Below are positions 42,420-63,499 of a DNA stretch of 64,000 nucleotides, in pieces. Origin of the DNA: Xanthobacteraceae bacterium. Lineage in GTDB: Bacteria; Pseudomonadota; Alphaproteobacteria; Rhizobiales; Xanthobacteraceae. The stretch is from NCBI GenBank assembly GCA_029239875.1, contig JARBUD010000010.1, forward strand, positions 1 through 64,000, given 5' to 3'. Numbering within the stretch: position 1 is the first letter of the stretch; every line of letters begins with the position of its first letter. The notes under the pieces were generated by a model. That model made no database searches, was not told the origin of the DNA, and saw only the letters and a list, made by a program, of their open reading frames with translations. The translations under genes and the position numbers were made by a program.

Positions 42420-43526
42420 TCACAGCCGTCGCCGCCCGCCGGCCGTCTCGCCGACGGCAGGCGGTGGCAGATCGGGCACGGTCCGCACGTTCAGGGAAGC
42501 ATCCTGTACCTCCGGCGGGCGCGAGCCGCCGCGATATTGCCGGGGCGACATGCCGAAGGCCTTGCGGAACTCGCGCGAGAAATGCGCCGCGTCGGAGAAG
42601 CCGCAGTCGAAGGCGATCTCGGTGATGCTGCGGGGGCTGTTGGTCAGCATCCAGCACGCATAGTCCTTGCGCAGCTCGCGCTGGAAAGCGGCGGGCGAGA
42701 CGCTGAGCGCGGTGCTGAAGGCTCGCTCCAATTGCCGGCTCGAACAGCCGACATAGCGGGCGATGGCGTCGATCGAGGGCGGATCGTCCAGGCGCTGCTC
42801 CATGAAATGGACGGCCTGATGCACCCGCGCATCGGTGACGCCGCCGAGATCGGCGAAGAAATGCGGTTGCGGCAGCGAGGAAGGGCGCATGCCCTGCAGC
42901 ATCATGTGCCGCACCGCCTGGTTGGCCTTGGCCGCCCCACAATGGCGCGTGACGAGGTAGAGGCCGAGATCGATCGCGGCGGTGGAACCGGCGCAGGACA
43001 GGACGTCGCCCTCGTCGACGAACAGCTTATCGGTCACCGGACGCAGCGTCGGGAACTGGGCCTGGAAGGCCTCCAGCACGTTCCAGTGGACGCAGGCGGT
43101 GCGTTTCTCGAACAGGCCGGCCTGCGCGATGGCGAAGGTGCCGGTGCACACCCCGATCAGCCGCACGCCGGCCCCCGCGGCGCGCCGCAGGTAGTCGAGC
43201 AGCGCCGCGGGATGGTGCTCGTTGAGATAGTCGTTGCCCCCGCACACCGCGATGTAGTCGAACTGCGCGGGGTCGAGCAGCGGCGAACTGTCGGAGATGA
43301 CCACGCCGCAACTGGCCCGCCGCGACGTGCCGTCAAGGCTCATCACCGTCCAGGAGGCATGGATCTGCCGGCTTCGCCCGCCATGATCGGCGGCGAGGCG
43401 CAGCGCGTCGATCAGCCCGCCGAAGGCGGCGAGGGTGAACTGGTCCAGCAGCACGAAGCCGACGCGCAGCGGCGAGGTGCGGGCGGACGCGAAGCGTTCG
43501 GCGGAGAGCGAAGGCACATGCGACAT
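42420..43526 (-). CDS. GlxA-family regulator (DJ-1/PfpI-like + AraC HTH)
   Basis: VGFVLLDQFTLAAFGGLIDALRLA; GVCTGTFAIAQAGL; AraC C-terminus ITEIAFDCGFSDAAHFSREFRKAFGMSPRQYR. Confidence 0.93.
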   Translation of the reverse strand: MSHVPSLSAERFASARTSPLRVGFVLLDQFTLAAFGGLIDALRLAADHGGRSRQIHASWTVMSLDGTSRRASCGVVISDSSPLLDPAQFDYIAVCGGNDYLNEHHPAALLDYLRRAAGAGVRLIGVCTGTFAIAQAGLFEKRTACVHWNVLEAFQAQFPTLRPVTDKLFVDEGDVLSCAGSTAAIDLGLYLVTRHCGAAKANQAVRHMMLQGMRPSSLPQPHFFADLGGVTDARVHQAVHFMEQRLDDPPSIDAIARYVGCSSRQLERAFSTALSVSPAAFQRELRKDYACWMLTNSPRSITEIAFDCGFSDAAHFSREFRKAFGMSPRQYRGGSRPPEVQDASLNVRTVPDLPPPAVGETAGGRRRL

Positions 43527-43621
43527 GTCGCCAATATCAAAGTTTCTGGCCCGATACTGCAAGCCGCCCTTGCGTCAGGGCGCGATTATCCGGCCGCCTG
43601 CACATGAGGGGAGATAACAAC

Positions 43622-44662
43622 ATGGCACGCATCCATGGTCTCGTTACCGCGTCGGCGCTCGCGCTCGGCGCCGCCATCGCGCCGGCATCGGCGCAGGAAG
43701 CCCTGCACGTCGCCTGGTACGGCGGCAACTGGGGAGACGCCTTCAAGGCCTGCGTGGCCGATCCCTTCACCAAGGCCACGGGCGTCACCGTGGTGCCGGA
43801 GGTCGGCACCTCCACCGTCACCCTGGCGAAGCTGCAGCAGCAGAAGGACGCCCCCACCATCGACGTCGCCTGGATGGATGGCGGCGTCAGCGAACTCGCC
43901 GACGCCGCGGGCGTGCTCGAGCCGATCACGCAAGCGGGCGTGCCGAACCTCGCCAACACGGTGCCGCAGGCGGTCTACAAGGACGATGGCGGCATCTATG
44001 CGGTTGGCACGGGCTACTACTCGCTCGGCCTGACCTACAACACGCAGGAGATCAAGGAGCCGCCGGCCTCCTGGAACGATCTGTGGAAGCCCGAATATGC
44101 CGATGCGGTGACGATCCCCTCACCGGCCAATTCCTCCGGCGTGCCGTTCCTGTTCTTCCTGCACAAGATCTGGAACGCGCCGGCCGGCGACTTCGCCCCG
44201 GTGTTCGCGAAGATCAAGGAACTCAAGCCGGCGCTGTTCTTCGATTCCTCGGGCGCGGCCTCCAATGCCTACCAGAGCGGCGAGGCGGTGATCGGCGCGC
44301 ATTTCAACGTCGGCGCCTTCGACCTCATCGCCAAGGGCCTGCCGATCGGCTTCACCGTGCCGAAGGAAGGCGTCTGGGCCACGGATGCCCGCCTGCATCT
44401 GGTGAAGAACGCCCCGCGCAAGGAGCTGGCGCAGAAGTTCATCGACACCGCGCTGACGCCCGAAGCCTCCGGCTGCCTCGCCGAGAAACTGTTCCTCGGC
44501 CCGTCGGTGAAGGGCGTCACCGTCTCCGCCGAGACCGCCCGCAAGCTGCCCTGGGGCGAGAAGGGCTCGGTCGAGAACCTCTATCTCCTGAACTGGGCCG
44601 AGGTGAACGCCAAGCGCGCCGAACTCGTCGACACTTGGAACCGCGAGATCGCCCGCAAGTAG
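43622..44662 (+). CDS. ABC transporter substrate-binding protein (PotD/extracellular type)
   Basis: Signal peptide; EALHVAWYGGNWGDAFKACVADPFTKATGVTVV. Confidence 0.92.
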   Translation: MARIHGLVTASALALGAAIAPASAQEALHVAWYGGNWGDAFKACVADPFTKATGVTVVPEVGTSTVTLAKLQQQKDAPTIDVAWMDGGVSELADAAGVLEPITQAGVPNLANTVPQAVYKDDGGIYAVGTGYYSLGLTYNTQEIKEPPASWNDLWKPEYADAVTIPSPANSSGVPFLFFLHKIWNAPAGDFAPVFAKIKELKPALFFDSSGAASNAYQSGEAVIGAHFNVGAFDLIAKGLPIGFTVPKEGVWATDARLHLVKNAPRKELAQKFIDTALTPEASGCLAEKLFLGPSVKGVTVSAETARKLPWGEKGSVENLYLLNWAEVNAKRAELVDTWNREIARK

Positions 44663-44847
44663 AGGCGCGCGCTCCCTCCGCCCGGCCCCACTCCGTCCGG
44701 GCGGAGCCGTCCTCGACCCCATCGGTCCAGGGCCTCCGCCGGCGCATTGTCGCCGATCCCGGACGCTCTGGCGTAATCTGGCTCCGCCGACCTGGGACGG
44801 CCACCCTTCCGTGCGGCTGTCCGCCTTCTCAAGCCAGGACACCATCT

Positions 44848-45891
44848 GTGCAGCCACTTCTCACCATTGAATCCGTCTCGAAGCGCTTTGCCGGGCACCA
44901 GGCCCTGCACGAGGTCGACCTCGCGATCGACGGCGGCGAATTCATCGCGCTGCTGGGTCCGAGCGGCTGCGGCAAGACCACGCTCCTGCGCTGCATCGCC
45001 GGCTTCCTGAAGCCGGACGACGGCCGCATCCTCATCGAAGGCGCGGACATCACCGGCGCGCCGCCCTATCGCCGCCCGCTGAACACGGTGTTCCAGAGCT
45101 ACGCGCTCTTTCCCCATATGAGCGTCGCCGACAACGTCGCCTACGGCCCGCGCCGGGCCGGCACCGGCCGCGCCGAGGCGCAGTCCCGTGCCCGCGAGGC
45201 GCTGGCGCTGGTCGGGCTGGAGGAGATGGGCGAGCGGCTGCCGCGCGCGCTTTCCGGCGGCCAGCAGCAGCGCGTGGCGCTGGCCCGCGCGATCGTGAAC
45301 AGGCCGAAGCTGCTGCTGCTCGACGAACCGCTCTCCGCGCTCGACCTGAAGCTGCGCCGCCGCATGCAGATCGAGCTCAAGCACATCCAGGAAAAGCTCG
45401 GCATCGCCTTCATCTTCGTGACCCACGACCAGGAAGAGGCCATGGCGATGGCCAACCGGATCGTGGTGATGAATGCCGGGCGCATCGAGCAGATCGGCAC
45501 GCCCGCCGACATCTACCGGGCGCCGGCGAGCCGCTTCGTCGCCGAGTTCGTCGGCGAGCCGAACCTCATCCCGGTCGAGCCGGCGGGCCCGGGCCGCATG
45601 CGCCTCAAGGTCACCGGCGCCGAACTGCCCTATGCCGAGGGCGTGCGCTGCGTGATGGCGCGGCCGGAAGACCTCGTGCTCGTCGATGGCACGCCGCCCG
45701 CCGACCTCGCCACCGCTGCCGGCATCGTCGAGGAAGTGGTCGCCGTCGGTCCGGTGACGACGCTGTTCGTGCGCTGCGGCGACGTCGTGCTGAAGGTCGC
45801 CCGGCTCGGCATGTCCGCTGCCGCGCTGCATCCCGGCAGCGCCGTCACCCTCGGGCTGCGCGTTTCGGCGCTGCACCCGATCGTGGAGTGA
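44848..45891 (+). CDS. ABC transporter ATP-binding protein (PotA-like)
   Basis: LLGPSGCGKTTLLRCIAGF; LSGGQQQRVALARAI; GTG start. Confidence 0.95.
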   Translation: MQPLLTIESVSKRFAGHQALHEVDLAIDGGEFIALLGPSGCGKTTLLRCIAGFLKPDDGRILIEGADITGAPPYRRPLNTVFQSYALFPHMSVADNVAYGPRRAGTGRAEAQSRAREALALVGLEEMGERLPRALSGGQQQRVALARAIVNRPKLLLLDEPLSALDLKLRRRMQIELKHIQEKLGIAFIFVTHDQEEAMAMANRIVVMNAGRIEQIGTPADIYRAPASRFVAEFVGEPNLIPVEPAGPGRMRLKVTGAELPYAEGVRCVMARPEDLVLVDGTPPADLATAAGIVEEVVAVGPVTTLFVRCGDVVLKVARLGMSAAALHPGSAVTLGLRVSALHPIVE

Positions 45892-46733
45892 GCCCGGTGA
45901 CCGCGCCCCGCACCACATTGGCCCTGCTGCTGTTCGCGCCGCTCGCCTTCTTCGCCGCCTTCTTCGTGGCGCCGATGGTGGTGGTCGCGCTCTCCAGCAT
46001 CACCGCCGACGACGGCGCCCTCACCGCTGCCCACTACGCGCGGATCCTCCTCGACCAGTATCACTGGGACGTGCTGTGGGTGACCTTCCGCATCGCGCTT
46101 CTGACCACGCTGATCTGCATGCTGGTGGGCTTCCCGCTCGCCTGGTACCTCGTGCGGATCGTGCGCTGGCGGGCGTGGCGGCGGGCCTGCGTGATCCTCA
46201 TCATCGTGCCGCTGTTCACCTCGAACATCGTGCGCTCCTTCGGCTGGATGGTGCTGCTCGGGCGCACCGGCCTGGTCAATCAGGGGCTGATGGGGCTCGG
46301 CCTCACCGAGCGCCCGATCCGCTTCCTCGGCACCGAGACCGGCATCCTCATCGGCCTCGTCTACATCCTCGTGCCCTTCGTGGTGCTCACGGTCGGCAAC
46401 GCGCTGGCCAAGATCGACACCGCCTATGAAGAAGCCTCCGCCGATCTGGGCGTCGGGCCGGCGCGGACCTTCTGGTTCGTCACCCTGCCGCTGACCCTGC
46501 CGGGCGCGGTCTCCGGGGCCATCATGGTGTTCGCCCTGGCGGTCAGCGCCTATGTGACGCCGGCGCTGCTCTCGGGCGGCCAGATCACCGTGTTCTCCAT
46601 GCTGATCTTCCAGCAATACTCGTCGGTGTTCGACTTCCACTACGGCGCGGCGCTGAGCATCACGCTGCTGGTGCTGACGCTGGTCCTCGTCACCGTCGCC
46701 GGGCGCATCGGCGAAGGGAGGAAGCCGGCATGA
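45888..46733 (+). CDS. ABC transporter permease (PotB-like)
   Basis: GTGA overlap; EEASADLGVGPARTFWFVTLPLTLPG EAA loop. Confidence 0.93.
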   Translation: MSPVTAPRTTLALLLFAPLAFFAAFFVAPMVVVALSSITADDGALTAAHYARILLDQYHWDVLWVTFRIALLTTLICMLVGFPLAWYLVRIVRWRAWRRACVILIIVPLFTSNIVRSFGWMVLLGRTGLVNQGLMGLGLTERPIRFLGTETGILIGLVYILVPFVVLTVGNALAKIDTAYEEASADLGVGPARTFWFVTLPLTLPGAVSGAIMVFALAVSAYVTPALLSGGQITVFSMLIFQQYSSVFDFHYGAALSITLLVLTLVLVTVAGRIGEGRKPA

Positions 46734-47524
46734 TCACGCGCTTCCTCATCCGCATCGTCGCCCTCGCCGCGCTCGCCTATCTAGTGCTGCCGCTGGTGGT
46801 GATCGTCGGCGCCTCGCTCACCGAGACCAGCTACCTCGCCTTTCCGCCGCAGGGGCTGACGCTGAAATGGTTCGGCGTGCTGTTCGACGATCCGTCCTAC
46901 GTCTCGGCCTTCGTCACCTCGACCCTGCTGGCGCTCGCCGCCACGGTGGTGGCGATCGTGCTCGCCATACCCGCGAGCCTGGCGCTGGCGCGCTACGTCT
47001 TTGCCGGCCGTGAGGCGATCTCCTCGCTGCTGATGTCGCCCCTAGTGCTGCCCTATGTGGTGCTCGGCGCCGCGCTGCTGCAGTTCGGCTCCGCCATCGG
47101 GCTGGCGCGCTCCTTCGAGGCGCTGCTCGTCGGCCATGTCGTCATCGTCATGCCCTTCGTGCTGCGCTCGGTGCTGCCGCTGCTAACCCCCGAGCAGCGC
47201 GCGCTGGAAGAGGCCTCGATGGACCTCGGCGCGACGCCGGTCGCCACCTTCTTCCTGGTCGTGCTGCCGCAGATCCGCGGCGGCATCGTCTCGGGCGGCC
47301 TCCTCGCCTTCATCTCCTCCTGGATCAACGTCGAGCTGTCGATCTTCAACACCTCCTCGGCGCTCAACACCATCCCGGTGAAGATGTTCAACTACGTGCA
47401 GTACACGATCGATCCGACCATCGCGGCGGTGTCCGCGATCACCATCGTCGCGGCTGCGCTCGTCATCATCCTTCTCGATCTGCTGATTGGACTGGACATG
47501 CTGTCCGAGTCCCGTCGGCCCTAA
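46730..47524 (+). CDS. ABC transporter permease (PotC-like)
   Basis: ATGA overlap; EEASMDLGATPVATFFLVVLPQIRGGI EAA loop. Confidence 0.93.
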   Translation: MITRFLIRIVALAALAYLVLPLVVIVGASLTETSYLAFPPQGLTLKWFGVLFDDPSYVSAFVTSTLLALAATVVAIVLAIPASLALARYVFAGREAISSLLMSPLVLPYVVLGAALLQFGSAIGLARSFEALLVGHVVIVMPFVLRSVLPLLTPEQRALEEASMDLGATPVATFFLVVLPQIRGGIVSGGLLAFISSWINVELSIFNTSSALNTIPVKMFNYVQYTIDPTIAAVSAITIVAAALVIILLDLLIGLDMLSESRRP

Positions 47525-47543
47525 TCCCAACGGAGCCTTCGCG

Positions 47544-48557
47544 ATGCGCAAGCAGGATAGTTTTGACGTCATTTACACGCACACCGAGGGCGAGCCGCTC
47601 TGCATCATCCACAGCGGCATTCCCTATCCGGCGGGCTCCTCGATCATCGAGAAGCGGGCGTTCCTCGAGGAGAATTACGACTGGGTGCGCGAGGCGCTGA
47701 TGCGCGAGCCGCGCGGCCATCGCGACATGTTCGGCGTGTTCCTGACCCCGCCTTCCTCGCGCGACTACGACGCCGGCCTGATCTATATCGACGGCACGCA
47801 GTACTCGCACATGTGCGGCCACGGCACGATCGCCGTCGCCATGGCGATGGTGGCGCACGGCATGGTGCGTCGCTCGGACGACGGCATCACCAAGATCCGC
47901 TTCGAGACCACCGCCGGCCTCGTCCAGGCCGAGGTCGCCACCGATGGCGACGAGGTGCTGTGGACCCGCTTCGAGAACGTGCCGGCCTATGTGGCGGCGC
48001 AGGACGTCGCCTTCGACCTGCCGGGCGTCGGCGCGCTCAAGGCCGACATCGTGTGGGGCGGCAACTATTTCGGCATCATCGACCTGCGCGGCACCTCGCT
48101 GAAGATCGGCCCGGAGAACGGCTCGGAGCTGTCGCGCCTCGGCATCCTCGCCCGCGAGGCGATCCGCGAGAAGGTGAAGATCCAGCACCCGACCGCCGGC
48201 CACATCAACAACTTCAACTTCGTCACCTTCTGGCACGAGCCGACCATCGAAGGCGCGCTCTACAAGAACGTGCACGTGTTCAGTGCCGGCCAGCTCGACC
48301 GCTCGCCGGGCGGCACCGGCACCAGCGCGATGATGGCGATGTTCGAGGCGCGCGGCGTGATCGGCCTGAACCAGCCGATCAAGTCCGAGGGCCTGCTCGG
48401 CACTGGCACCTTCGAAGGCGAGCTGATCGGCGAGACGAAGCTCAACAATGTGCGCGCGGTGCGCCCCACGGTGAAGGGCACCGCCGGCCTGCTCGGCACG
48501 GCGCGCTGGGTGATCGACCGCAAGGACCCGGTCGGCGCCGGCTTCCTCGTCGCCTGA
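47544..48557 (+). CDS. Proline racemase superfamily enzyme (hydroxyproline epimerase/dehydratase-like) with atypical Cys/Gly active-site pair
   Basis: THTEGEPLCII; MCGHGTIAVAMAMV; LDRSPGGTGTSAMMAMF. Confidence 0.9.
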   Translation: MRKQDSFDVIYTHTEGEPLCIIHSGIPYPAGSSIIEKRAFLEENYDWVREALMREPRGHRDMFGVFLTPPSSRDYDAGLIYIDGTQYSHMCGHGTIAVAMAMVAHGMVRRSDDGITKIRFETTAGLVQAEVATDGDEVLWTRFENVPAYVAAQDVAFDLPGVGALKADIVWGGNYFGIIDLRGTSLKIGPENGSELSRLGILAREAIREKVKIQHPTAGHINNFNFVTFWHEPTIEGALYKNVHVFSAGQLDRSPGGTGTSAMMAMFEARGVIGLNQPIKSEGLLGTGTFEGELIGETKLNNVRAVRPTVKGTAGLLGTARWVIDRKDPVGAGFLVA

Positions 48558-48573
48558 CGAGCGGGACTGACAA

Positions 48574-48599
48574 GATCGGCGCCCGCGAGGGCGCCGATC
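48574..48599. terminator. Hairpin between convergent genes
   Basis: GATCGGCGCCC-GCGA-GGGCGCCGATC, perfect 11-bp stem with GNRA loop. Confidence 0.65.
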
Positions 48600-48602
48600 A
48601 AC

Positions 48603-49505
48603 CTACGGCAGGACCGTGGTCACGATCGACCGGTCCAGCGCCTCGTAGTCGAAGTAGCGGATGCTCTCGTAGAGCTCGGCGCGGGTCTGCATGCGCGGGA
48701 TCAGCGCCTCCGGCGTGCCGGCCCGGCGGATTTCGCGATAGAGCTCTTCCTGCGCCTTGGCGGCGACGCGCAGCGACGATACCGGCCAGATCACCATGCG
48801 ATAGCCGAGCTCGGCGAATTCCTGCGCGGTCAGCGCCGGCGTGCGTCCGAACTCCGTCATGTTGGCGAGCAGCTTCACGCCCGGCAGGCGCTGGGCGACC
48901 TCGCGGAACATCTCGACCGAGGTGAGTGCCTCCGGGAAGATCGCGTCGGCACCAGCCTCCAGATAGAGCTTCGCGCGCGCCACCGCGCCGACGATCCCCT
49001 CGCTCGCGGCCGCATCGGTGCGGGCGATGATGACGAGGTCGCGGCGCGCCCGGCGGGCGGCATTCACCTTCGCCGCCATGTCCTGCGGCGAGGCGAGGTG
49101 CTTGTCGTTCAGATGACCGCACTTCTTGGGAAGAAGCTGGTCCTCCATCTGCACCGCGCCGGCGCCCGCATCCTCGAAGGCGCGGACCATGTGCATCACG
49201 TTCAGCGCCTCGCCATAGCCGGTGTCGCCGTCGACGAGGACCGGCAGCATGGAGGCGCGGGCGAGCTGGCGGGTGTAGAAGGCCATCTCGTCGACGGTCA
49301 GGATGCCGAGGTCCGGCAGCCCCATCGAGGCGCTCACCGCCGCGCCCGAGAGATAGAGCGCCTCGAAGCCGGCATCGCGGGCCTGAAGCGCGGCGAGCCC
49401 GTTATGGGCGCCGGGAATCTCCAGGATGGCGTCGCGCTCGATGAGCGCCCGGAACCGCGCGCCCGCCGAGGCCGTGGGCAGATCGGCACTAACGAGATAG
49501 GTCAA
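48603..49505 (-). CDS. Isocitrate lyase/PEP mutase family (methylisocitrate lyase-like)
   Basis: DGDTGYGEALNVMHMVRAFEDAGAGAVQMEDQLLPKKCGHL. Confidence 0.93.
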   Translation of the reverse strand: MTYLVSADLPTASAGARFRALIERDAILEIPGAHNGLAALQARDAGFEALYLSGAAVSASMGLPDLGILTVDEMAFYTRQLARASMLPVLVDGDTGYGEALNVMHMVRAFEDAGAGAVQMEDQLLPKKCGHLNDKHLASPQDMAAKVNAARRARRDLVIIARTDAAASEGIVGAVARAKLYLEAGADAIFPEALTSVEMFREVAQRLPGVKLLANMTEFGRTPALTAQEFAELGYRMVIWPVSSLRVAAKAQEELYREIRRAGTPEALIPRMQTRAELYESIRYFDYEALDRSIVTTVLP

Positions 49506-49546
49506 GGCAAGGTCCTCTGTCGGTCATCGGTTGCGGCGGAGCGGCC

Positions 49547-51061
49547 TCAGCTCGCCTCGCTGTCCGACATGGCGCGGATGCGCCGGCCGAGACGCGGGGC
49601 GAGCATGGGGACGAGGAAGGTCAGCGCGGCCAGCACCCAGAACAGGATGGCGACCGGCGAGGAGACGAGCACCAGCACGTCGCCGTCCGAGAGCGACAAG
49701 GCGCGCCGGATGTTGTCCTCCAGCAGCCGCGCCAGCACGAAGGCGATCAGCATCGGGATGAGCGGGATGCCGATCTTGCGCATCGCATAGGCGACGATGC
49801 CGATGCCGGTGGCGAGCAGCAGCTCGAAGGTCGAGTTCGTCGCCGCATAGACGCCGGCGAAGGACAGGCCGAGCACGCCGGGGAACAGGATCCAGTTCGG
49901 CACCAGCAGCAGGCGCGCGAACAGACCGACCAACGGCAGGTTGAGCACCAGCAGCATGATGTTGCCGATATACATGGAGGCGATCAGGCCCCAGGCGATC
50001 TCCGGGCGCTGGGTGAAGAGCAGCGGGCCGGGCGTGATCGAGTACATCAAGAGCGCACCCAGCATGACGGCGGTGGTTCCCGAGCCGGGAATGCCGAGCG
50101 CCAGCATCGGCACCATCGAGGCGGTCTGGGCGGCGTTGTCGGCGGTCTCCGGCGCCGCGAGGCCGCGCATGTCGCCCTTGCCGAAGGTGCCGTCGCGATC
50201 GGACACCCGCTTCTCCGCCGTATAGGCGAGCGCGGAGGCCACGGCCGCACCGGTGCCCGGCAGCACGCCGAGGAAGAAGCCGATGCCGGTCGCGCGCAGC
50301 ATCGCCGGGAAGCAGGCGACGAGCTCCCTCAGCTTCAGATGGCTGCCGGCGCCGAGATTGGAGACCGAGCCCGAGCGCATGCCTTCCGCCACCACGAGAA
50401 TCTCGCTGACGGCGAACAGGCCGATGGTCAGGGTGGTGAAGTCGATCCCGCCCAGCAATTCCAGCGAGCCGAAGGTGAAGCGCTCGACGCCGGAGCCGCC
50501 GTCGACACCGATCATGGCGCCGAGCAGCCCGAGGCAGATCGCCGCCCAGGTCTTGGCGGTGCGCCCCTGCCCCATGGTCGCCAGCAGCGCGAAGGCGAGC
50601 ACCATCAGCGCCACATACTCCGCCGGCCCGAAGGAGACGGCGAGGCGCGCGATGGGCACGGCGAGGAAGGTGAGCAGGACGACGGTGAGCGTGCCGCCGA
50701 CGAAGCTGCCGATGCCGCTCAGCGCCAGCGCCGCCGCTCCGCGCCCCTGCTGCGCCAGCGGGTAACCGTCCAGCGTCGTCATGACGAGGCCGGGATCGCC
50801 GGGGATGTTCAGGAGGATGGACGAGATGCGCCCGCCATAGCCGCTGCCGTAATAGATGCCGGCCAGCAGGATCAGCGCGCTCTCGGGCGGCAACTGCAGC
50901 GAGAAGCACAGCGGCAGCAGCAGCACGATGGCGTTGATCGGGCCGATGCCCGGCAGCGCCCCGATGGCCGTGCCGAGAGCGGCGCCAGCGAGCGCGAGCG
51001 CCAGGTTGAACGGCGTGAAGGCGACGCTGAAGCCGAAGGCCAGTGAGGAAAGCGCTTCCAT
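49547..51061 (-). CDS. tctA: Tripartite tricarboxylate transporter permease TctA
   Basis: GALPGIGPINAIVLLLPLCF; GIYYGSGYGGRISSILLNIPGDP. Confidence 0.95.
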   Translation of the reverse strand: MEALSSLAFGFSVAFTPFNLALALAGAALGTAIGALPGIGPINAIVLLLPLCFSLQLPPESALILLAGIYYGSGYGGRISSILLNIPGDPGLVMTTLDGYPLAQQGRGAAALALSGIGSFVGGTLTVVLLTFLAVPIARLAVSFGPAEYVALMVLAFALLATMGQGRTAKTWAAICLGLLGAMIGVDGGSGVERFTFGSLELLGGIDFTTLTIGLFAVSEILVVAEGMRSGSVSNLGAGSHLKLRELVACFPAMLRATGIGFFLGVLPGTGAAVASALAYTAEKRVSDRDGTFGKGDMRGLAAPETADNAAQTASMVPMLALGIPGSGTTAVMLGALLMYSITPGPLLFTQRPEIAWGLIASMYIGNIMLLVLNLPLVGLFARLLLVPNWILFPGVLGLSFAGVYAATNSTFELLLATGIGIVAYAMRKIGIPLIPMLIAFVLARLLEDNIRRALSLSDGDVLVLVSSPVAILFWVLAALTFLVPMLAPRLGRRIRAMSDSEAS

Positions 51062-51062
51062 C

Positions 51063-51506
51063 TCAGATCCCCAGCGGTCCGCGCGGCAGCGGCAGGCCGA
51101 GCAGGATGTCGATCAGCAAAAGGAAGCTTCCGGCAAGCGCGACGGAGGCGATGGCCGACCCCAGCGTCGGGCCGCGGAAGGCCTTGGCGCAGGCGAAGCA
51201 CAGCAGGGTGGTCGCCGGCACGAAGCCGAGCGGATCGAGCACGAGCGGATAGACCAGGCTCGCGACCGCCACGAGGATGACGCGGCCATAGTCGCCGCGC
51301 TCCCACTCGACACGGTCGGGACGCAGCAGGATGGCGGCGCCGGCGATCGCCAATATGGCCCCCACCACCATCGGGAACACCTTCGGGCCGACCGGGTCGG
51401 CCGCGAAGGGAACGTCGAGCGACCAGGCGTGCCAGATCGCGCCGATGCCGACGAGAAGGAAGAGCGCGCCGGCGATCCGGTCGCCCGACGATCCTGCTGC
51501 GTTCAT
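51063..51506 (-). CDS. tctB: Tripartite tricarboxylate transporter TctB family
   Basis: Small 4-TM protein directly upstream of tctA: GPKVFPMVVGAILAIAGAAILLR. Confidence 0.88.
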   Translation of the reverse strand: MNAAGSSGDRIAGALFLLVGIGAIWHAWSLDVPFAADPVGPKVFPMVVGAILAIAGAAILLRPDRVEWERGDYGRVILVAVASLVYPLVLDPLGFVPATTLLCFACAKAFRGPTLGSAIASVALAGSFLLLIDILLGLPLPRGPLGI

Positions 51507-51516
51507 GAGTGCCTGC

Positions 51517-52500
51517 TCAGTTGCCGGTGGTCTTCAGGCCCACCTCGGCGGCGAGCTTGCGGAACGCATCCGTGCGCGCCTTGGCGAAGGCGTCGAACTC
51601 CGGCCCGACCAGGTCGTAGGCGAACAGGCCCTGCTCCTCGCGCACCTTCTGCCAGCGCGGATCGGAATTGAGCTTCTTCAGCGCATCGACCCAATAGGCA
51701 TACTGCTCGTCGGTGATGCGGGGCGGCAGGTAGAAGCCGCGCACGATCGGCCACTCGACGTCGTAGCCGGCTTCCTTGGCGGTCGGGACATCGGCGAAGA
51801 CGCCCGGCAGGCGCTTGTCGGAGAAGGTCGCGAGCACCCGGATCTCGCCGGCCTCCAACTGGCCGCGGACCTCGGAAGCGTCGCCCGGCACCGCATCGAT
51901 CGTGCCGCCAAGCAGCGCCGCCAGCGCCTCGCCGCCGCCCTCATAGGACAGGTAGCGCATCTTGCGCGGATCGACGCCCGCGGCCTTGGCCACCAGGGCC
52001 GGCTTCATCCAGTCCTGGCTGCCGACCGTGCCGCCGGCGCCGATGGCGACCGAGCCGGGATCCTTCTTCAGCGCATCGACGAAGTCCTGCAGGGTCTTGA
52101 AACGGCTGTCCTTGCGGACGGCGAGGACGCCGTAATCGGCGCCGACGGCACCGAGCCAGCGCACGTCGTTCTCGGTGAAGCGGCCGAACTTGCCCTGGGC
52201 GAGGTTGACCCAGGAGCCGGTGGAGACGGCGATGATGACGTTCGGATCGTCGGCGCGCCGCGCCTGGATGTTGTTGTAGGCCACCGCGCCGATGCCGCCG
52301 GGCATGTTGGTGGTGCGGATGGTCGGCTTGACGATGCCGAGCTCGTTGAGCTGCTGCGAGGTCACGCGGCAGGTCAGGTCGAAGCCGCCGCCCGGCGCAG
52401 CCGGCGCGATGCATTCAGGGTTGCGCGGCTCGAAGCCCTGCGCCGAAGCGACGCCACCGAGGGCGAGGCTGGCGATCACGGCAAAGGCGAGACGTGTCAT
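51517..52500 (-). CDS. tctC: Tripartite tricarboxylate transporter substrate-binding protein (TctC/Bug)
   Basis: Signal peptide; CIAPAAPGGGFDLTCRV; operon position. Confidence 0.92.
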   Translation of the reverse strand: MTRLAFAVIASLALGGVASAQGFEPRNPECIAPAAPGGGFDLTCRVTSQQLNELGIVKPTIRTTNMPGGIGAVAYNNIQARRADDPNVIIAVSTGSWVNLAQGKFGRFTENDVRWLGAVGADYGVLAVRKDSRFKTLQDFVDALKKDPGSVAIGAGGTVGSQDWMKPALVAKAAGVDPRKMRYLSYEGGGEALAALLGGTIDAVPGDASEVRGQLEAGEIRVLATFSDKRLPGVFADVPTAKEAGYDVEWPIVRGFYLPPRITDEQYAYWVDALKKLNSDPRWQKVREEQGLFAYDLVGPEFDAFAKARTDAFRKLAAEVGLKTTGN

Positions 52501-52524
52501 TGGCATCCTCCCAAACTTTCATTA

Positions 52525-52618
52525 TTGTCGACAAATCTCAGAGTTTTTCGCCGAATGCAACCCTTGTGGCGCCAATCCGGCAGGCCAGCGACGAGAATGA
52601 CGGATACTTTGTCGACAA
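52525..52618. promoter_or_regulatory. Two identical TTGTCGACAA palindromes (52525-52534, 52609-52618), likely GntR operators
   Basis: Perfect 10-bp palindromes in the tctC/gntR divergent region. Confidence 0.75.
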
Positions 52619-53304
52619 GATTACCGCAAACCGGACGACGCTCGAACCAGTCCGACTCGCTGTTCGAGACGCTTACGGTCGGGATCATGACCGGGCGCAT
52701 ACAGCCCGGCGACAAGCTGAACGAGCTGGTGCTCGCCGAGGAATTCGGCGTGAGCCGCGCGCCGATACGCGAGGCTTTCCGGCGCCTTCAGGAGAAGGGG
52801 CTGGTCACCCATGTCGCCCATCAGGGCGTCCGGGTGATCTCGCCGACGCTGCAGGATTTCCTCTCGCTGCTGGACGTACGCGAGGCGCTGGAAGGCATGG
52901 CGAGCCGGCTCGCCGCGACGGAGATGGGGCCGGACGAACTCGACGGGCTGGCCGACGTGGTCGAGCAGCACGGCCGCGACCTGCAGCGCAATCCCGACGG
53001 CCCCTATGTGCAGAACGACTTCGACAACGACTTCCACGTTCGGATCGCCCGCGGATGCCGCAACCCGGTGCTGACCGATCTCCTGTGCGACCAGTTCTAC
53101 CCGCGGCTGAAGCTCTGCCGCGCACGGCACGGCCTCGTGAAAGGACGCGGCCTCGCCGCCTGGAACGAACATCGCCGCATCCTCGCCGCGCTGATGGAAC
53201 GCGACGGCGATGTCGCCGAGTTGCTCATGCGCCGGCATGTCCGGTCCGCCCGAGCCGCCCTGCTCTCGTCGGCGCCCGGACCGGATGGACGCGCTGCGGT
53301 CTAA
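52597..53304 (+). CDS. GntR family regulator (FCD/FadR-like)
   Basis: LFETLTVGIMTGRIQPGDKLNELVLAEEFGVSRAPIREAFRRLQEKGLV. Confidence 0.94.
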   Translation: MTDTLSTRLPQTGRRSNQSDSLFETLTVGIMTGRIQPGDKLNELVLAEEFGVSRAPIREAFRRLQEKGLVTHVAHQGVRVISPTLQDFLSLLDVREALEGMASRLAATEMGPDELDGLADVVEQHGRDLQRNPDGPYVQNDFDNDFHVRIARGCRNPVLTDLLCDQFYPRLKLCRARHGLVKGRGLAAWNEHRRILAALMERDGDVAELLMRRHVRSARAALLSSAPGPDGRAAV

Positions 53305-53771
53305 TCGATCGGCAGCGCCTGCGAGTGCTTGATCTGGCTGAGGGCGAAGCTCGACTCGATGGAGGCGACGCCTTCCAGCCGGGTCAGCGTCCGCTTGAGG
53401 AAGGCCTCATAGGCCGGCAGGTCCTTGACCACGATGCGCAGGAGATAATCCCGCTGGCCGGTCATCAGATAGCACTCGACGATCTCCGGCCAGCGCAGGA
53501 TCGCCTTCGAGAAACGGTCGAGCTCGTCCTCGCGCTGGCGCTCCAGCTTGATCGAGGCGAAGACGCTGATGGGCAGGCCGACCTTGTCCTGATCGACCAC
53601 CGCGACATAGCGCTTGATGACGCCGGCGGCCTCGAGGTTGCGCACCCGCCTTGCGCAGGGCGAGGGCGACAGGCCGACGAGCTCCGCGAGGCGCTCCATC
53701 GTGGTGTGCGCATCCTCCTGCAGCACGGCGAGAATCCGGCGGTCGATGTCGTCGATCCTAGCTTCTGGCAT
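53301..53771 (-). CDS. Lrp/AsnC family regulator
   Basis: IDDIDRRILAVLQEDAHTTMERLAELVGLSPSPCARRVRNLEAAGVIKRYVAVVD. Confidence 0.95.
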   Translation of the reverse strand: MPEARIDDIDRRILAVLQEDAHTTMERLAELVGLSPSPCARRVRNLEAAGVIKRYVAVVDQDKVGLPISVFASIKLERQREDELDRFSKAILRWPEIVECYLMTGQRDYLLRIVVKDLPAYEAFLKRTLTRLEGVASIESSFALSQIKHSQALPID

Positions 53772-53901
53772 GATCAGCTACGCTTCAGCTCAAAATTAGC
53801 GGATTGAGCCAAGATAAGTCGTCCGACTGGCGCAGAATAGCTGCAAAACGCGTATGATCGTGCCTAGTCTGCCATTCCAGCGTAAGCCGGAGCGCCGCCC
53901 C

Positions 53902-56277
53902 ATGGCCAAGACCGCCGACGACATCGCCCTTCTCGAAGAGCTGGAGCGCAAGATCCTCTGGCTGGCGACGTGGACGATCCACAATGCCAACCACGTCCGT
54001 CCCAGCACCGACGGGCTGAAGGTGGGCGGCCACCAGGCCTCCTCCGCCTCCATGGCGACCATCATGACCGCGCTCTATCTCAAGGCGCTGCGCCCCGAGG
54101 ACCGGGTCGCGGTGAAGCCGCATGCGAGCCCGATCTTCCACGCCATCCAGTATCTCGCCGGCCACCAGACGCGCGAGAAGCTGGAGAATTTCCGCGGTTA
54201 CAAGGGCGCGCAGTCCTACCCCTCGCGCACCAAGGACATCGACGACGTCGACTTCTCCACCGGCTCGGTCGGCCTCGGCGTGGCGCAGACTTTGTTCGCC
54301 TCGCTGGTGCAGGATTATCTGCGCGCCAAAGGCCTCCTCGGGACCGGCCTCGGCACCGCCCTGCCCGAGGGCAAGATGGTCGCCCTCGTCGGCGACGCCG
54401 AGATGGACGAGGGCAACATCTTCGAAGCTCTGCTGGAGGGCTGGAAGCACGGCCTGCGCAACACCTGGTGGATCGTCGACTACAACCGCCAGAGCCTCGA
54501 TGCGGTGGTGCGCGAAGGGCTGTGGGAGCGCTTCGAATCCATCTTCCGCAATTTCGGCTGGGACGTCGTCATCCTGAAATATGGCCGCCTCCAGCAGGCG
54601 GCGTTCAAGGAGCCGGGCGGCGAGGCGCTGCGCCGCTGGATCGACGAATGCCCGAACCAGCTCTACTCCGCGCTCACCTTCCAGGGCGGCAAGGCCTGGC
54701 GCAAGCGCCTCACCGACGATCTCGGCGACCAGGGCCCGGTCTCGGCGCTGCTGGACCGCCGCTCCGACGAGGAGCTGGCCCAGCTCATGGGCAATCTCGG
54801 CGGCCACGACCTGCCCTCGCTGGTCGACGCGTTCGAGGCGGCGCGCGAGCACGACCGGCCGGTCTGCTTCATCGCCTACACCATCAAGGGCTTCGGCCTG
54901 CCGCTCGCCGGCCACAAGGACAACCATGCCGGGCTGATGACCCCGGCGCAGGTCGAGGACCTGCGCGCCCACCATCATGTCCGTCCCGGCCATGAATGGG
55001 ACCGGTTCGAGGGGCTCACGGCCGAGCCGGCGAAGCTCGACGCCTTCATCAAGGCCGCCCCCTTCAATGCCGAGGGCACGCGCCGCCATCAGGCGCCGCA
55101 TATCGCGGTGCCGGCGAAGCTCGACGTGCCGCTTCAGCCGGCCATGTCGACCCAGCAGGGCTTCGGGCTGCTGCTCAACGAGATCGGCAAAAGCGAAGGC
55201 GAGTTCGCCAGCCGCATCGTCACCACCTCGCCGGACGTCACCGTCTCCACCAATCTCGGCGCCTGGGTGAACCGGCGGCAGCTCTTCGCCCGCGAGGAGC
55301 TGGCCGACACCTTCAAGAAGGAGCGGATACCCTCGACCTTCAACTGGGAGTTCTCGCCCAAGGGCCAGCACATGGAGCTCGGCATCGCCGAGATGAACCT
55401 GTTCATCATGCTCTCGGCGCTCGGCCTGTCGCATTCGCTGTTCGGCGAGCGGCTGCTGCCCGTCGGCACGCTCTACGATCCCTTCATCGAGCGCGGCCTC
55501 GATGCGCTGAACTATGCCTGCTATCAGGACGCCCGCTTCATTCTCGCCGCCACGCCCTCGGGCGTCACGCTGGCGCCGGAGGGCGGCGCGCACCAGTCCA
55601 TCGCCACGCCGCTGATCGGCATGGCGCAGGACGGGCTCGCCAGCTTCGAGCCGGCCTTCGTCGACGAGTTGGCGGTGATCCTGCGCTTCGCCTTCGCGCA
55701 CGCTCAAGACGAGGATGGCGGCTCAACCTATCTGCGCCTTTCCACCCGCACCATCGAGCAGCCGCGCCGCACCATCGACGACGCGCTGGCTGAGGACATC
55801 GTCAAGGGTGGCTACTGGCTGCGCCGGCCGGGTCCGAACGCTCAAGTTATCGTCGCCTATACCGGCGCACTGGCGCCCGAGGCCATCGAGGCGGTCGGGC
55901 TGATCGCCGAGGACCGGCGCGATGTCGGCCTGCTCGCCGTCACCTCGGCCGACCGGCTGCATGCCGGCTGGACCGCCGCCCAGCGGGCGCGCGAAGAGGG
56001 CGATTACGGCGCCCGCGCCCATGTCGAGACGCTGCTCGACGCCGTGCCGCCGGGCTGCGCCATCATCAGCGCGGTCGACGGCCATCCGGCGACGCTCGGC
56101 TGGCTCGGCTCGGTCCACGGCCACCGCTCGCGCGCGCTCGGCGTCGAGCATTTCGGCCAGACCGGCACCATCGCCGACCTCTACCGCCATTTCGGCATCG
56201 ACGCGCAGGGCATCGCCCGCGCAGCGCAGGCCATCGTGCCGGGCCGGCCGATCCGGCATCTGCGGATGGTGAGCTGA
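53902..56277 (+). CDS. AceE/transketolase-like ThDP enzyme (homodimeric 2-oxoacid dehydrogenase E1 family)
   Basis: RPSTDGLKVGGHQASSASMATIMTALYL; VGDAEMDEGNIFEALLEGWKHGLRNTWWIVDYNRQSLD; ATG at 53902 within longer ORF. Confidence 0.85.
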   Translation: MAKTADDIALLEELERKILWLATWTIHNANHVRPSTDGLKVGGHQASSASMATIMTALYLKALRPEDRVAVKPHASPIFHAIQYLAGHQTREKLENFRGYKGAQSYPSRTKDIDDVDFSTGSVGLGVAQTLFASLVQDYLRAKGLLGTGLGTALPEGKMVALVGDAEMDEGNIFEALLEGWKHGLRNTWWIVDYNRQSLDAVVREGLWERFESIFRNFGWDVVILKYGRLQQAAFKEPGGEALRRWIDECPNQLYSALTFQGGKAWRKRLTDDLGDQGPVSALLDRRSDEELAQLMGNLGGHDLPSLVDAFEAAREHDRPVCFIAYTIKGFGLPLAGHKDNHAGLMTPAQVEDLRAHHHVRPGHEWDRFEGLTAEPAKLDAFIKAAPFNAEGTRRHQAPHIAVPAKLDVPLQPAMSTQQGFGLLLNEIGKSEGEFASRIVTTSPDVTVSTNLGAWVNRRQLFAREELADTFKKERIPSTFNWEFSPKGQHMELGIAEMNLFIMLSALGLSHSLFGERLLPVGTLYDPFIERGLDALNYACYQDARFILAATPSGVTLAPEGGAHQSIATPLIGMAQDGLASFEPAFVDELAVILRFAFAHAQDEDGGSTYLRLSTRTIEQPRRTIDDALAEDIVKGGYWLRRPGPNAQVIVAYTGALAPEAIEAVGLIAEDRRDVGLLAVTSADRLHAGWTAAQRAREEGDYGARAHVETLLDAVPPGCAIISAVDGHPATLGWLGSVHGHRSRALGVEHFGQTGTIADLYRHFGIDAQGIARAAQAIVPGRPIRHLRMVS

Positions 56278-56384
56278 CAATCGCGCCCGCACGCGCAAGC
56301 TGACGCTTCCCAAGCCCCGCGGCACGGCGTAACAGAGCCGTGGGGCAATGATTGCCGCGCATTGGCGCGGCATGGGGGAACGGC

Positions 56385-57400
56385 TTGGCGGGGCGGCGCG
56401 TCTTCATCACCGGCACGGCCGGCTTCATCGGCTTCCATCTCGCGCGGCTGCTGCTCTCGGAAGGCTTCCGGGTGCACGGCTATGACGGCATGACCGATTA
56501 TTACGACGTCCGCCTCAAGCAGCGCCGCCACTCCATGCTGGCGCAGAGCGAGGGCTTCTCCTCCACCGAGGCGATGCTGCAGGACATGGAGACGCTGGAG
56601 CGGACGATCGAGGAGTTCCGTCCCGACATCATCGTCCATCTCGCGGCGCAAGCGGGCGTGCGCTACAGCCTTGAGAAGCCGCGCGCCTACATCGACTCCA
56701 ACATCGTCGGCACGTTCAACGTGATGGAATGCGCCCGCGCCGTCCCGGTGCAGCACCTGCTGATGGCCTCGACCTCCTCGGTCTACGGCGCCAATGAGGA
56801 GATGCCGTTCCACGAGACCGACAAGGCCGACACTCCGCTCACTATCTATGCCGCGACCAAGAAGGCCACGGAGGCGATGGGCCATTCCTACGCCCACATC
56901 TACGGCCTGCCGACGACCATGTTCCGCTTCTTCACGGTCTACGGCCCCTGGGGCCGGCCGGACATGGCGCTGTTCAAGTTCACCCGCGGCATCCTCGAAG
57001 GCACGCCGATCGACATCTACAATCACGGCGAGATGTGGCGCGACTTCACCTATGTCGACGACCTCGTGCGCGGCATCCGCCTGCTGATCGACGCCGTGCC
57101 GCCGCTGCCCGGCGCACGTGAGGAAGAGGTGCCCGGCGACAGCCTGAGCCCGGCGGCGCCGTTCCGCGTCGTCAACATCGGCAATTCCGACAAGGTGCGC
57201 CTGCTCGACTTCGTCGACGCCATCGAGCAGGAGCTCGGCGCTAAGGCGATCCGCAACTACATGCCGATGCAGACCGGCGACGTGCCGGCCACCTGGGCGA
57301 ACGCCGACCTGATCCACACGCTCACCGGCTACAAGCCGAACACGCCGTTCCGCGAGGGCGTGGCGCGCTTCGTCGCCTGGTATCGCGACTATTACGGCGC

Positions 57401-57404
<4 letters not shown>
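56385..57404 (+). CDS. NAD-dependent epimerase (UDP-glucuronate 4-epimerase-like)
   Basis: [52 protein letters not shown]; start (TTG) uncertain. Confidence 0.9.
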
Positions 57405-58698
<1,294 letters not shown>

Positions 58699-58702
<4 letters not shown>

Positions 58703-59955
58703 TTCCCGGCTGCGCCGGCCCGGCGACCTGCCAGCTCACTGAGGATCGCAGCGAAGGCGCGCGTGCCCTTGTCGAAGGAGAGCTCGCGCTCATAGAAGGC
58801 GCGGCCATTGGCGCCGAGCGTCGCGAGCTCGGCGGGATCGAGGCTGGCCAGCTGGACGACCGCGCCGGCCAGCGCCTGCGGGTCCTCCGGCGGCACGATG
58901 AGTCCCGCGCCGGCCTGCCGGACCAGCTCGGCCGCATCGCCCGACACCGCCATGAGCACCGGCTTGCCGGCGATCAGATAGGCCTGCGTCTTGGACGGCA
59001 CGGTGACGTCGAAGAGCGGATCGTCCTTCAGATGCACCAGCAGCACGTCGGCCGCCGCCAGCCAGGCGCCGACCTCGGCCGCGGGAACCCGCGGCAGGAA
59101 CCGGACATTGGCGAGCCCCTCGCGCTGGGCGCGCGCCTTCAGTCGTTCGGTCTCCAGCCCATAGCCGAGGAAGCAGAACTCGATGTGCGGATTGCTTTCC
59201 GCCACCAGCGCCGCAGCATCGAGCGCGCTGTCGATCGCCTGGGCGAGGCCCATATTGCCGGCAAACAGCACGCGGAATTTTCCGGTGTCGCCGAACGCCT
59301 CCGGCCGCGGGCCGGGCGGTGCGTACATGGCGTCCTCGTCCGCCCAGTTGTGGATCACGCTGATCTTCTCGGGCGGTGCGCCGCGCTCGATCAGCAGCCG
59401 GCGGAAGCCGTCCGATTGCGCCACGACATGATCCACCCGCCGCCAGGTCCAGCGGCAGACGGCGTCGATCATGCCGAGCACGGAGCCGCTGTTGATCATG
59501 CCGGTCGCCCGCAGCGTGTCCGGCCACATGTCCTGCACCTCGAGCAGCACAGGGGTTCGGCGGAAGAACCGCGTCACCACCGTGGCGACGCCGACCGTGA
59601 TGGGCGGATGATAGGCGCAGATGACGTCGGCGCGACGCGCGAACAGCGTCAGGTAGAGCGTCGCCGACAGGAAGAAGCTGACGAAGTTGAGGATGCGCCC
59701 GAGCCGGCTCGCATCGTGGCTCGGATAGAGCGCCAGCCGGGTGACGGCGACGCCGTCCCGCATCTCCTTCAGGATCGGGCGGATGCGGTAGCCGCCATAA
59801 ACCTTGCCGCCGGGATAGTTGGGGAAGCCGGTGACCACCTCGACGTCGAAGCCGAGCTCGCCCAGCCGCCGCGCAAAGGCCGCGCCCCGGACATTCGGCT
59901 CGGGGTCGTACCATTGCGAGACGAAGATGAGGCGCGGGCGGGCGGCGGCGCTCAT
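58699..59955 (-). CDS. Glycosyltransferase family 4 (WbuB-like)
   Basis: [45 protein letters not shown]. Confidence 0.92.
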
Positions 59956-61100
59956 ATGCCCAGATCGTTCTTCCTGATCCCGTCCCAGCCGTTCGACAGG
60001 TGCGCCGTGCCGAGGATCAGGCTGACCACGCGCTCCGACGTATCGGTGATGCGATAATCCTCCGGCACCGGATGCGGCCGACCCTCTTCTTCGCGGGCGG
60101 CGAACATGCGGGTGGCGGCGTGGACGCCGCGCAGCACCGCCTCGCGCGAGAGGCCGGTGATGACGATGGATCCCGTGTCCAGCGCCTCCGGCCGCTCGAT
60201 CGCATCGCGCGGCGTGATGGCGGGGAAGCCGAGGATGGAGGCCTCCTCGGCGATGGTGCCGCTGTCGGAGATGGCGCAGAAGGCGCCCATCTGCAGGCGG
60301 TTATAGTCGTGGAAGCCGAACGGCTTCATGAACTGCACCCGCTCGTCCGCCACCGCGCCGAGCGCCTCCAGCCGCTTGCGGGTGCGCGGATGGGTCGAGA
60401 CGATGAGCGGGAGGTCATAGCGCACGGCGAGCTCCGAGAGCGCGCCGACCAGCTCGGAGAGGCGGTCGCCCCGGTCGACATTCTCCTCGCGGTGCAGCGA
60501 GACGATGAAATAGCCGCGCTCCGCGAGCCCCAGCCGTTCCAGCACGTCGGAGGCCTCGATCTGCGGGCGATAATGCTCCAGCACCTCGCGCATGGGCGAG
60601 CCGGTGAGGTAGAGACGCCGGTGCGGCAGGCCCTCGGCCAGCAGGTGCCGGCGGGCGTGCTCGGTATAGACGAGGTTGAAGTCGGCGATGTGGTCGACCA
60701 GCTTGCGGTTGGTCTCCTCCGGCACGTTGCGGTCGAAGGAGCGGTTGCCGGCTTCCATGTGATAGACTGGCACCTTCATCCGCCGGGCCATGATGGCGGA
60801 GATCGCCGAATTGGTGTCGCCGAGGATCAGCACCGCGTCGGGCTTTTCAGCGGCGATGACCTTCTCGCTCTCGGTCAGGATCTTGCCCAGCGTCTCGCCG
60901 AGCGAGCCGCCACCGGTGCCGAGGAAATGGTCCGGCCGGCGCACGCCGAGGTCCTCGAAGAACACCTCGTTGAGCTCGTAGTCGTAGTTCTGGCCGGTGT
61001 GGACGATGCAGTGGTCGCAATATTCGTCGAGCCGCGCCATCACCCGCGAGAGGCGGATGATCTCGGGCCGCGTGCCCAATATGGTCATCACCTTGAGCAT
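59952..61100 (-). CDS. UDP-N-acetylglucosamine 2-epimerase family (WbjD/FnlC-like)
   Basis: MLKVMTILGTRPEIIRLSRVMARLDEYCDHCIVHTGQNYDYELNEVFFEDLGV. Confidence 0.93.
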   Translation of the reverse strand: MLKVMTILGTRPEIIRLSRVMARLDEYCDHCIVHTGQNYDYELNEVFFEDLGVRRPDHFLGTGGGSLGETLGKILTESEKVIAAEKPDAVLILGDTNSAISAIMARRMKVPVYHMEAGNRSFDRNVPEETNRKLVDHIADFNLVYTEHARRHLLAEGLPHRRLYLTGSPMREVLEHYRPQIEASDVLERLGLAERGYFIVSLHREENVDRGDRLSELVGALSELAVRYDLPLIVSTHPRTRKRLEALGAVADERVQFMKPFGFHDYNRLQMGAFCAISDSGTIAEEASILGFPAITPRDAIERPEALDTGSIVITGLSREAVLRGVHAATRMFAAREEEGRPHPVPEDYRITDTSERVVSLILGTAHLSNGWDGIRKNDLGI

Positions 61101-61104
61101 CGTC

Positions 61105-61479
61105 TCACCCCAGGACAGGATCGGCATAGGTGTCGGGCGCGGCGGGATCGAAGATCGCCTGCGTCCAGAACAAGGTCAGCAGCGGCTTGTCGCCGATATT
61201 CTCGATGCTGTGCGTGTGCAGCGTCGGCATGTCGACCGCCGCCGGCGCCGCGCCGTTCACGCGATATTCCCACACCGGCCCGCCGAGCACACGACGGATG
61301 CGGATGACGGCCTCGCCCTCCAGCACCAGGAAACGCTCGACCTTGTCGAGGTGGAAATGGTTGCCGCGCGTCACGCCCGGCTCTGTCCAGCTGAGGAAGG
61401 TCTGCCCGCCTCCGCCGCCCTTCACCGCCTCGAACAGCACGCCGCGCGCGTCGCTGTTGAGCTTGAGCGAGCGCGGCGC
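61105..61479 (-). pseudogene. CapF/WbjC-type C-terminal cupin fragment lacking the N-terminal NAD-binding domain
   Basis: SLKLNSDARGVLFEAVKGGGGGQTFLSWTEPGVTRGNHFHLDKVERFLVLEGEAVIRI; frame is closed by a stop at 61480-61482 with no SDR domain. Confidence 0.7.
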
Positions 61480-61967
61480 TCACCGAGGCCGCCGGCTTCT
61501 TCGTCGAGCAGGTGCTGCTCGACCACGACGCCGACAGCTACCGTGTGCTGGGCGGCAGCCGCCGCTCCACCCATGAGGAGCTGCGCCACAACATGGCGCT
61601 GCTGATGCGCTGGCTGCACCCGGACCTGCAGGCGCTGCGCAACCGCGCCGCCGCCGACCGCGAGGTGTTCAGCAGCCGGGTGACGCGGGCCTGGGAGGAC
61701 CTGAAGAACGACGAGCGCCGGCGTGCCTATGACCGCCTGCACCCGCCGGCCGCGCCGTCGAACGGCGCGACGCGCCGGAGCAGCCGTGGGCCAAAGACCG
61801 GTTCGGTAAAGATCAGTCCGGCCAATGGCGCGTCGAAGGGCCGGTATCCCGGGAGCGCGGCGAAGCCGATGCTGCGTTCGCGGTCCCGCTCCCCCGGCAG
61901 ATCCCGCCACAGCAGCGGCGGCTCGTTCTGGATGCGGCTCTTCGACCTGTTCCGGAGGAGCCCGTGA
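61467..61967 (+). CDS. J-domain-like protein, possibly 5'-truncated (GTG at 61512 the first plausible start)
   Basis: ALTEAAGFFVEQVLLDHDADSYRVLGGSRRSTHEELRHNMALLMRWLHPDLQ...RAWEDLKNDERRRAYDRLHP. Confidence 0.65.
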   Translation, partial: ASAALTEAAGFFVEQVLLDHDADSYRVLGGSRRSTHEELRHNMALLMRWLHPDLQALRNRAAADREVFSSRVTRAWEDLKNDERRRAYDRLHPPAAPSNGATRRSSRGPKTGSVKISPANGASKGRYPGSAAKPMLRSRSRSPGRSRHSSGGSFWMRLFDLFRRSP

Positions 61968-63499
61968 CGCTGCTCTTTCCGGGCCGGGAGAAGCACAAGC
62001 GGCGCCACCACCGGTCCCGGACTCAGGACGGCGCGCGCCCGCCGCGCCTGCCCTGGCTGCGCAACCTGCGCCTCGCCGTCGCCGCGCATCCGCGGCGGGC
62101 GGCGGCGCTCGGCGTGCTCGGCCTGCTGCTGGTCGGCTTCATCGCCACCTCCTCGCTGCCCATGGCACTGGCCGAGAGCTATCCGCGCCTCGCGCTGATG
62201 CTCTATCCCGATCACCCGCAGGCGCTGATGACGCTCGCGCGGGACGAGCAGCGCGCGCTCGCCGCAGCATTGCCGGCCCCGCCGGCGCAGGATGCCCGGC
62301 TAGGCAGCGACGCCGCCGCTCCCGCGGATGCCACGGCCGAAACATCGAGCGAAGCGGCGGCCGAGGCGCCGGCGACCGCGACGGGCGAGGCAATCACCGA
62401 GCCCCTCACGCCGCCGGCCTCGCCGGAGGAACTGGCCGCGCGCCGCGCCACCATCCGCGACCTCGCCTCCCGCGCGCTCGCGCAGGCGCCGCTCGCCGCC
62501 GACGTCTATCGCCTGCTCGGCGACACCTCCGAGGACCTCGAAATCACCCGCCAGGCGATGACCGAGGCGGTGGCGCGCTCGCGCCGCGAGACCGTGGCCG
62601 CCTTCTGGCTGCTGCACCAGGCCTATGAAGGCGGCGACCCTGATGGGGTGGTGCGCATGGCGAATGTGCTGCTGCGCACCCGTCCGGAGCTCAACCGCTT
62701 CACGCTGAGCTATCTGAATTCGCTGGTCCTGACGCCGGAAGGGCGCGACGCGCTGGCTGCCGCCCTCGTCGCCCAGCCGTCCTGGCGTCTTCGGTTCCTC
62801 GGCAATCTCGGCCAGCAGCTGGCCGCCTCCGACGCGCCGCTGACGCTGTTCCAGCAACTGAAGGCGGCGGGCAGCCCCCCGACCGAGGAGGAGCTGGCGC
62901 CGTTCCTGCGGGCCCGCATGGCCGCGGACAAGTCGGCCGGCGCCGCCTACAACATCTGGCTGCAACTACTGTCGGCCGACGAGCTGGCCAAGGTGCGCCC
63001 GGTCAACAATATCGACTTCGCCGCCGCGCCGGGCACGCTGCCCTTCAACTGGAGCGTTCCGCGCTCCAGGAACGCCTTCGTGGATTTCCTGCCGCGCGGC
63101 GAGGCGAATGCAGGCCGCACCTTGCGGGTCCGCTTCGGCATCGGCAGGGTGGGGTTCAACGGCGTGTCGCAGGTGACCTTCCTCGCGCCCGGCACCTACC
63201 GCTTCACCGGCATGCAGAAGGGCAGCATGTCGGCGAAGCGCGGCATGCGCTGGCAGGTGCAGTGCTATTCCAGCAGCCAGATGGCCGGCCAGTCCGACCA
63301 GCTGATGGGGACGCCGCGCGGCTGGCAGGAATTCGCCTTCGACGTCACCATTCCCGATGACGGCGGCTGCGACGCCCAGCGGCTGCGCCTCATCCATGAC
63401 GCCCGCTCGGCCTCCGAGCAGTTCGCCAGCGGCGAGATCCAGTTCGAGTCGCTGCGCATCGAGCCGGTGGTGGACACCCCGGCCGCGACGCCGGGCTGA
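61964..63499 (+). CDS. Hypothetical membrane-anchored protein, probable helical-repeat region and C-terminal beta domain
   Basis: GTGA overlap with J-domain gene; one TM (AALGVLGLLLVGFIATSSLPMAL). Confidence 0.75.
   Translation: MTLLFPGREKHKRRHHRSRTQDGARPPRLPWLRNLRLAVAAHPRRAAALGVLGLLLVGFIATSSLPMALAESYPRLALMLYPDHPQALMTLARDEQRALAAALPAPPAQDARLGSDAAAPADATAETSSEAAAEAPATATGEAITEPLTPPASPEELAARRATIRDLASRALAQAPLAADVYRLLGDTSEDLEITRQAMTEAVARSRRETVAAFWLLHQAYEGGDPDGVVRMANVLLRTRPELNRFTLSYLNSLVLTPEGRDALAAALVAQPSWRLRFLGNLGQQLAASDAPLTLFQQLKAAGSPPTEEELAPFLRARMAADKSAGAAYNIWLQLLSADELAKVRPVNNIDFAAAPGTLPFNWSVPRSRNAFVDFLPRGEANAGRTLRVRFGIGRVGFNGVSQVTFLAPGTYRFTGMQKGSMSAKRGMRWQVQCYSSSQMAGQSDQLMGTPRGWQEFAFDVTIPDDGGCDAQRLRLIHDARSASEQFASGEIQFESLRIEPVVDTPAATPG

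Follow-up and report, generated by a model that had tools for sequence, protein, structure and literature searches.

Two gene remnants meeting head to head

We analysed a stretch of 64,000 nucleotides (the window) that makes up positions 1–64,000 of C24, a 114-kb contig in a 71-contig draft genome (G000; 5.07 Mb, 99.6% completeness). Near the right end of the window, pieces of two genes lie head to head on opposite strands. On the minus strand, positions 61105–61476 hold a 3′ remnant of fnlB/wbjC, recognized by Pfam, NCBIfam and comparison with relatives. Its reading frame follows a TGA at 61482–61480 and continues as APRSLKLNSDARG, and its cupin domain (Polysacc_synt_C) matches the full PF14667 model (positions 1–111, 2e-43). 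FnlB/WbjC reductases combine an SDR domain with a cupin; a Pfam search of the remnant found the cupin and no SDR domain, and against the WbjC reductase model NF047837 it covers only positions 254–368 of 372. It corresponds to residues 257–379 of the 379-amino-acid protein of a close relative, G009, which has both domains. These matches identify the minus-strand piece as the C-terminal cupin of a FnlB/WbjC-type reductase.

The plus strand carries, at 61471–61967, a 3′ remnant of a gene for a J-domain protein that is linked to wzc in relatives, as identified by Pfam and by those relatives. Here the frame opens after a TGA at 61464–61466 and continues as ASAALTEAAGFF. The remnant runs from about residue 59 of 228 onwards, such that the N-terminal segment is gone and the J domain with its HPD motif is kept; it matches the full PF00226 (DnaJ) model at 4.6e-8. 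By this match, what the plus strand retains is the C-terminal portion of a J-domain protein. Both remnants are single-copy in the genome except for one distant DnaJ, and the sequence of the junction between them is unique.

A sequence-only reading of this DNA had already described a CapF/WbjC-like cupin lacking its SDR domain on the minus strand and J-domain-type sequence directly after the stop at 61464–61466 on the plus strand, and its identifications, like its coordinates for the two ORF pieces and both stops, proved accurate. It had also drawn attention to an inverted repeat, GAGCG-CGG-CGCTC, at 61469–61481. The position is right, but the significance given to it does not hold up. The left arm lies on the fnlB side and the right arm on the J side, and the repeat is a by-product of the join because it spans the join; moreover, as there are 183 perfect 5-3-5 hairpins in the window (2.9 per kb), finding one here is at chance level and carries no weight. 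We therefore reject the repeat as a cause of the rearrangement. Each of the two stops falls in antisense sequence of the opposite gene, and so both stops are by-products of the join as well.

Intact genes and intervening DNA in relatives

As a comparison reference we used G009, the nearest relative whose genome is finished (a single contig of 4,765,023 bp), which also stands in for the ancestor with respect to end points, deletion size and gene content. In G009, fnlB and the J gene lie on one contig in the same orientation as in the window but 19.17 kb apart. Window positions 42015–61476 align to G009 3352000–3371481 at 94%, and contig positions 61468–64088 align to G009 3390652–3393285 at 88%, both on the same strand. 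Sequence homologous to full-length FnlB can be followed as far as 61476, and the full-length J gene is matched from about 61471; two positions that are ordered along a single replicon in relatives are joined here. The same order is kept in another relative, G015, which reads fnlC-fnlB-fnlA ... PGT-ligase / cpsB-wza-wzc-J-p508.

Both genes are whole elsewhere. FnlB is full length in G009, G012 and G015, and full-length homologues in other species cover the WbjC model end to end. The J gene is full length in G009, G015, G010 and G001, in the named loci of the same genus, which are from Ancylobacter species, and in further loci from other Hyphomicrobiales. In G009 it encodes 228 amino acids and starts 3 nt after wzc. 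All 12 loci compared have wzc directly upstream of J, and the J match begins at residue 1 in ten of them and at residues 4 and 6 in the other two.

Nearly all of the DNA between the end points is missing from the genome of the window. A DNA search of that genome with 17.4 kb of the 19.2-kb G009 stretch returned just short snippets of 77–94% identity; the remaining ~1.8 kb, at the right end of the stretch, was tested only as Wzc protein. In protein searches of the genome the best relative of Wzc reached 26% and that of FnlA 34%, and almost none of the stretch was found elsewhere in the assembly. Relocation of the locus within the genome can be rejected, as DNA and protein searches alike gave only distant relatives. 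Two Poly_export genes are present on contigs C19 and C29, away from the locus in the window.

Comparing the join base by base, we found that 6 bp, GCGCGG (61471–61476, without strand), are common to the window and to both G009 end points. With G009 as the stand-in for the ancestor, this identity goes beyond chance: at least 6 bp were shared in 0.39% of 200,000 random joins drawn within 1.5 kb of the end points. No insertion sequence or long repeat was seen at the join.

Together, these observations make it likely that one deletion, about 19.2 kb long by comparison with G009, left its scar here by joining the middle of fnlB/wbjC to the middle of the J gene. Cutting and rejoining would have used the shared GCGCGG, in the manner of replication slippage or end-joining at microhomology. 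Because the middle of the locus varies among relatives, the exact size and the set of lost genes are estimates. The earlier reading had proposed a deletion or inversion breakpoint that removed the 5′ ends of both genes together with wbjB and the rest of a polysaccharide locus. Deletion is borne out by the collinearity with G009 and the gap there, truncation by the full-length genes that relatives carry in place of these short ORFs, and the predicted loss by the fnlA/wbjB gene and Wzx/Wzy/Wza/Wzc locus that G009 has between the end points. The inversion part is unsupported and we reject it, because the order and strand of both flanks are kept relative to G009. A simple deletion would suffice, with neither inversion nor translocation needed.

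Alternatives to a simple deletion

Divergence from G009 is higher in the flank to the right of the join (80–94% identity, dS 0.22–0.30) than in the left flank (mostly 92–99%, dS 0.10–0.18), and the right flank is followed by a segment of ~8.1 kb (contig positions 64,088–72,188, beyond the window) that is missing from the corresponding place in G009. These features hint that recombination also acted at the locus. The deletion could then have accompanied the acquisition of foreign DNA spanning J, p511, araC and the 8.1-kb segment (to ~72.2 kb of the contig), through homologous recombination on the right and an illegitimate join at microhomology on the left, an account also favoured by matches of 77–82% between the far part of the segment and sequences both in other members of the genus and elsewhere in G009 (1,042,311–1,047,685). 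We nevertheless regard it as unlikely. The gene p511 and the tail of J evolve fast in general (omega 0.44 and 0.76, respectively, between G009 and G015), the genome of the window and G009 are about equally distant from G015 in the right flank, and insertion and deletion could be separate events. By eye, the 8.1-kb segment encodes a FixJ-like response regulator, a second J-domain protein, a Tat-type beta-propeller protein and a MacB/LolD-like ABC transporter.

In a draft of 71 contigs, the flanks might also have been wrongly connected during assembly, with the locus present in the real genome. This is very improbable: an assembly that is 99.6% complete lacks nearly all of the 19 kb, relatives have the flanks in identical order and orientation, and assemblers need far more than a 6-bp overlap to connect contigs. 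A further idea, that the cupin and the short J protein are each complete genes in their own right and that DNA was inserted in G009, can be dismissed: the reading frames of both remnants are open and their folded parts conserved, yet several species have full-length genes, J starts at residue 1 in most relatives, and one insertion could not complete two unrelated genes at once.

Predicted lost functions and retained neighbours

Going by the content of G009, the deletion would have removed the SDR half of fnlB, fnlA (fnlA/wbjB), three glycosyltransferases, Wzx, a Wzy-like membrane protein without a Pfam match, a PglF/CapD-type dehydratase, a DegT aminotransferase, an acetyltransferase, an initiating sugar transferase, a Wzy_C ligase/polymerase, CpsB, Wza, Wzc and the first ~58 residues of the J protein; the glycosyltransferases, acetyltransferase and sugar transferase were named by eye from translations. 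As the middle of the G009 locus is variable between relatives, the ancestor of the window strain may have carried other genes there, but it very probably had fnlA and cpsB-wza-wzc-J, since G015 also keeps them. Both promoter regions were likely lost too, because the two operons diverge between the ligase gene and cpsB.

What remains on the left is an fnlC-type UDP-GlcNAc 2-epimerase gene (59952–61127, minus strand; PF02350, WecB family), which overlaps the 3′ end of the fnlB remnant, and a WcaI/WbuB-type glycosyltransferase gene (58699–59955, minus strand). On the right, the J remnant is followed by p511 (61964–63499, plus strand), an intact gene, also found in relatives, for a 511-amino-acid protein with one N-terminal hydrophobic stretch. 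These genes would have been cut off from the upstream parts of their operons. Relatives carry fnlA-fnlB-fnlC, the genes of the FnlA-FnlB-FnlC (WbjB-WbjC-WbjD) pathway to UDP-L-FucNAc. In the window strain, fnlC and the remaining 3′ end of fnlB keep the relatives' order; without fnlA and the SDR half of fnlB, the pathway is expected to be non-functional. Export through the locus's own Wzx/Wzy/Wza/Wzc would be lost as well, and the strain is predicted to lack one surface polysaccharide that relatives produce.

Losses of surface polymer genes are an ordinary type of event in bacteria, and deletions within Wzx/Wzy-dependent loci that abolish capsule or exopolysaccharide are known. There, as apparently here, one event takes out the bulk of the genes for synthesis, polymerization and export and truncates the flanking genes. 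Unlike those cases, the join here has 6-bp microhomology without an insertion sequence or long repeat, and the host is an Ancylobacter/Starkeya-type bacterium. Literature searches yielded nothing on this locus, and a search among open-licence papers gave none on this wzc-linked J protein.

A by-product of the comparison is that a J-domain protein and a protein of unknown family accompany the Wzc export kinase across Hyphomicrobiales. In G009 the order cpsB-wza-wzc-J-p508 runs from L028:17492 to L029:4696 by gene-order comparison; it is complete in 10 of 12 loci (L044–L055), including loci outside the genus, and the other two end at contig ends on the wzc side. In relatives the counterpart of p511 is the last gene of this operon, whose upstream part is missing here. 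We obtained no Pfam match for p511, no NCBIfam match for its G009 orthologue and neither for p508. A J-domain partner for Wzc-type export may not have been described before. That the truncated J protein and p511 keep a function after loss of the polysaccharide machinery seems quite doubtful; in that reading, cpsB-wza-wzc-J-p508 would be a conserved, apparently undescribed Hyphomicrobiales operon.

The remnants also bear on the age of the loss. Compared with G009 over the cupin (123 codons) and the J core (91 codons), they show 28 silent and 5 amino-acid changes, and free drift over the lineage's whole branch would be expected to give ~47 amino-acid changes; drift lasting longer than roughly a quarter of the branch should already have produced more than the five observed. 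Assuming equal branches and a Poisson count, five or fewer changes have a P value below 0.01 once free time reaches ~30% of the branch. Because amino-acid change is so low in the folded parts, this suggests that the loss is recent or that the remnants are still under selection; divergence in the J tail is uninformative on decay, as the tail evolves fast in relatives too. Finally, the retained glycosyltransferase gene is a divergent allele, with 75% amino-acid identity to G009 against 97–99% for its neighbours and 73–76% nucleotide identity within a stretch that is otherwise 92–98% identical, which probably reflects local recombination in the polysaccharide locus.
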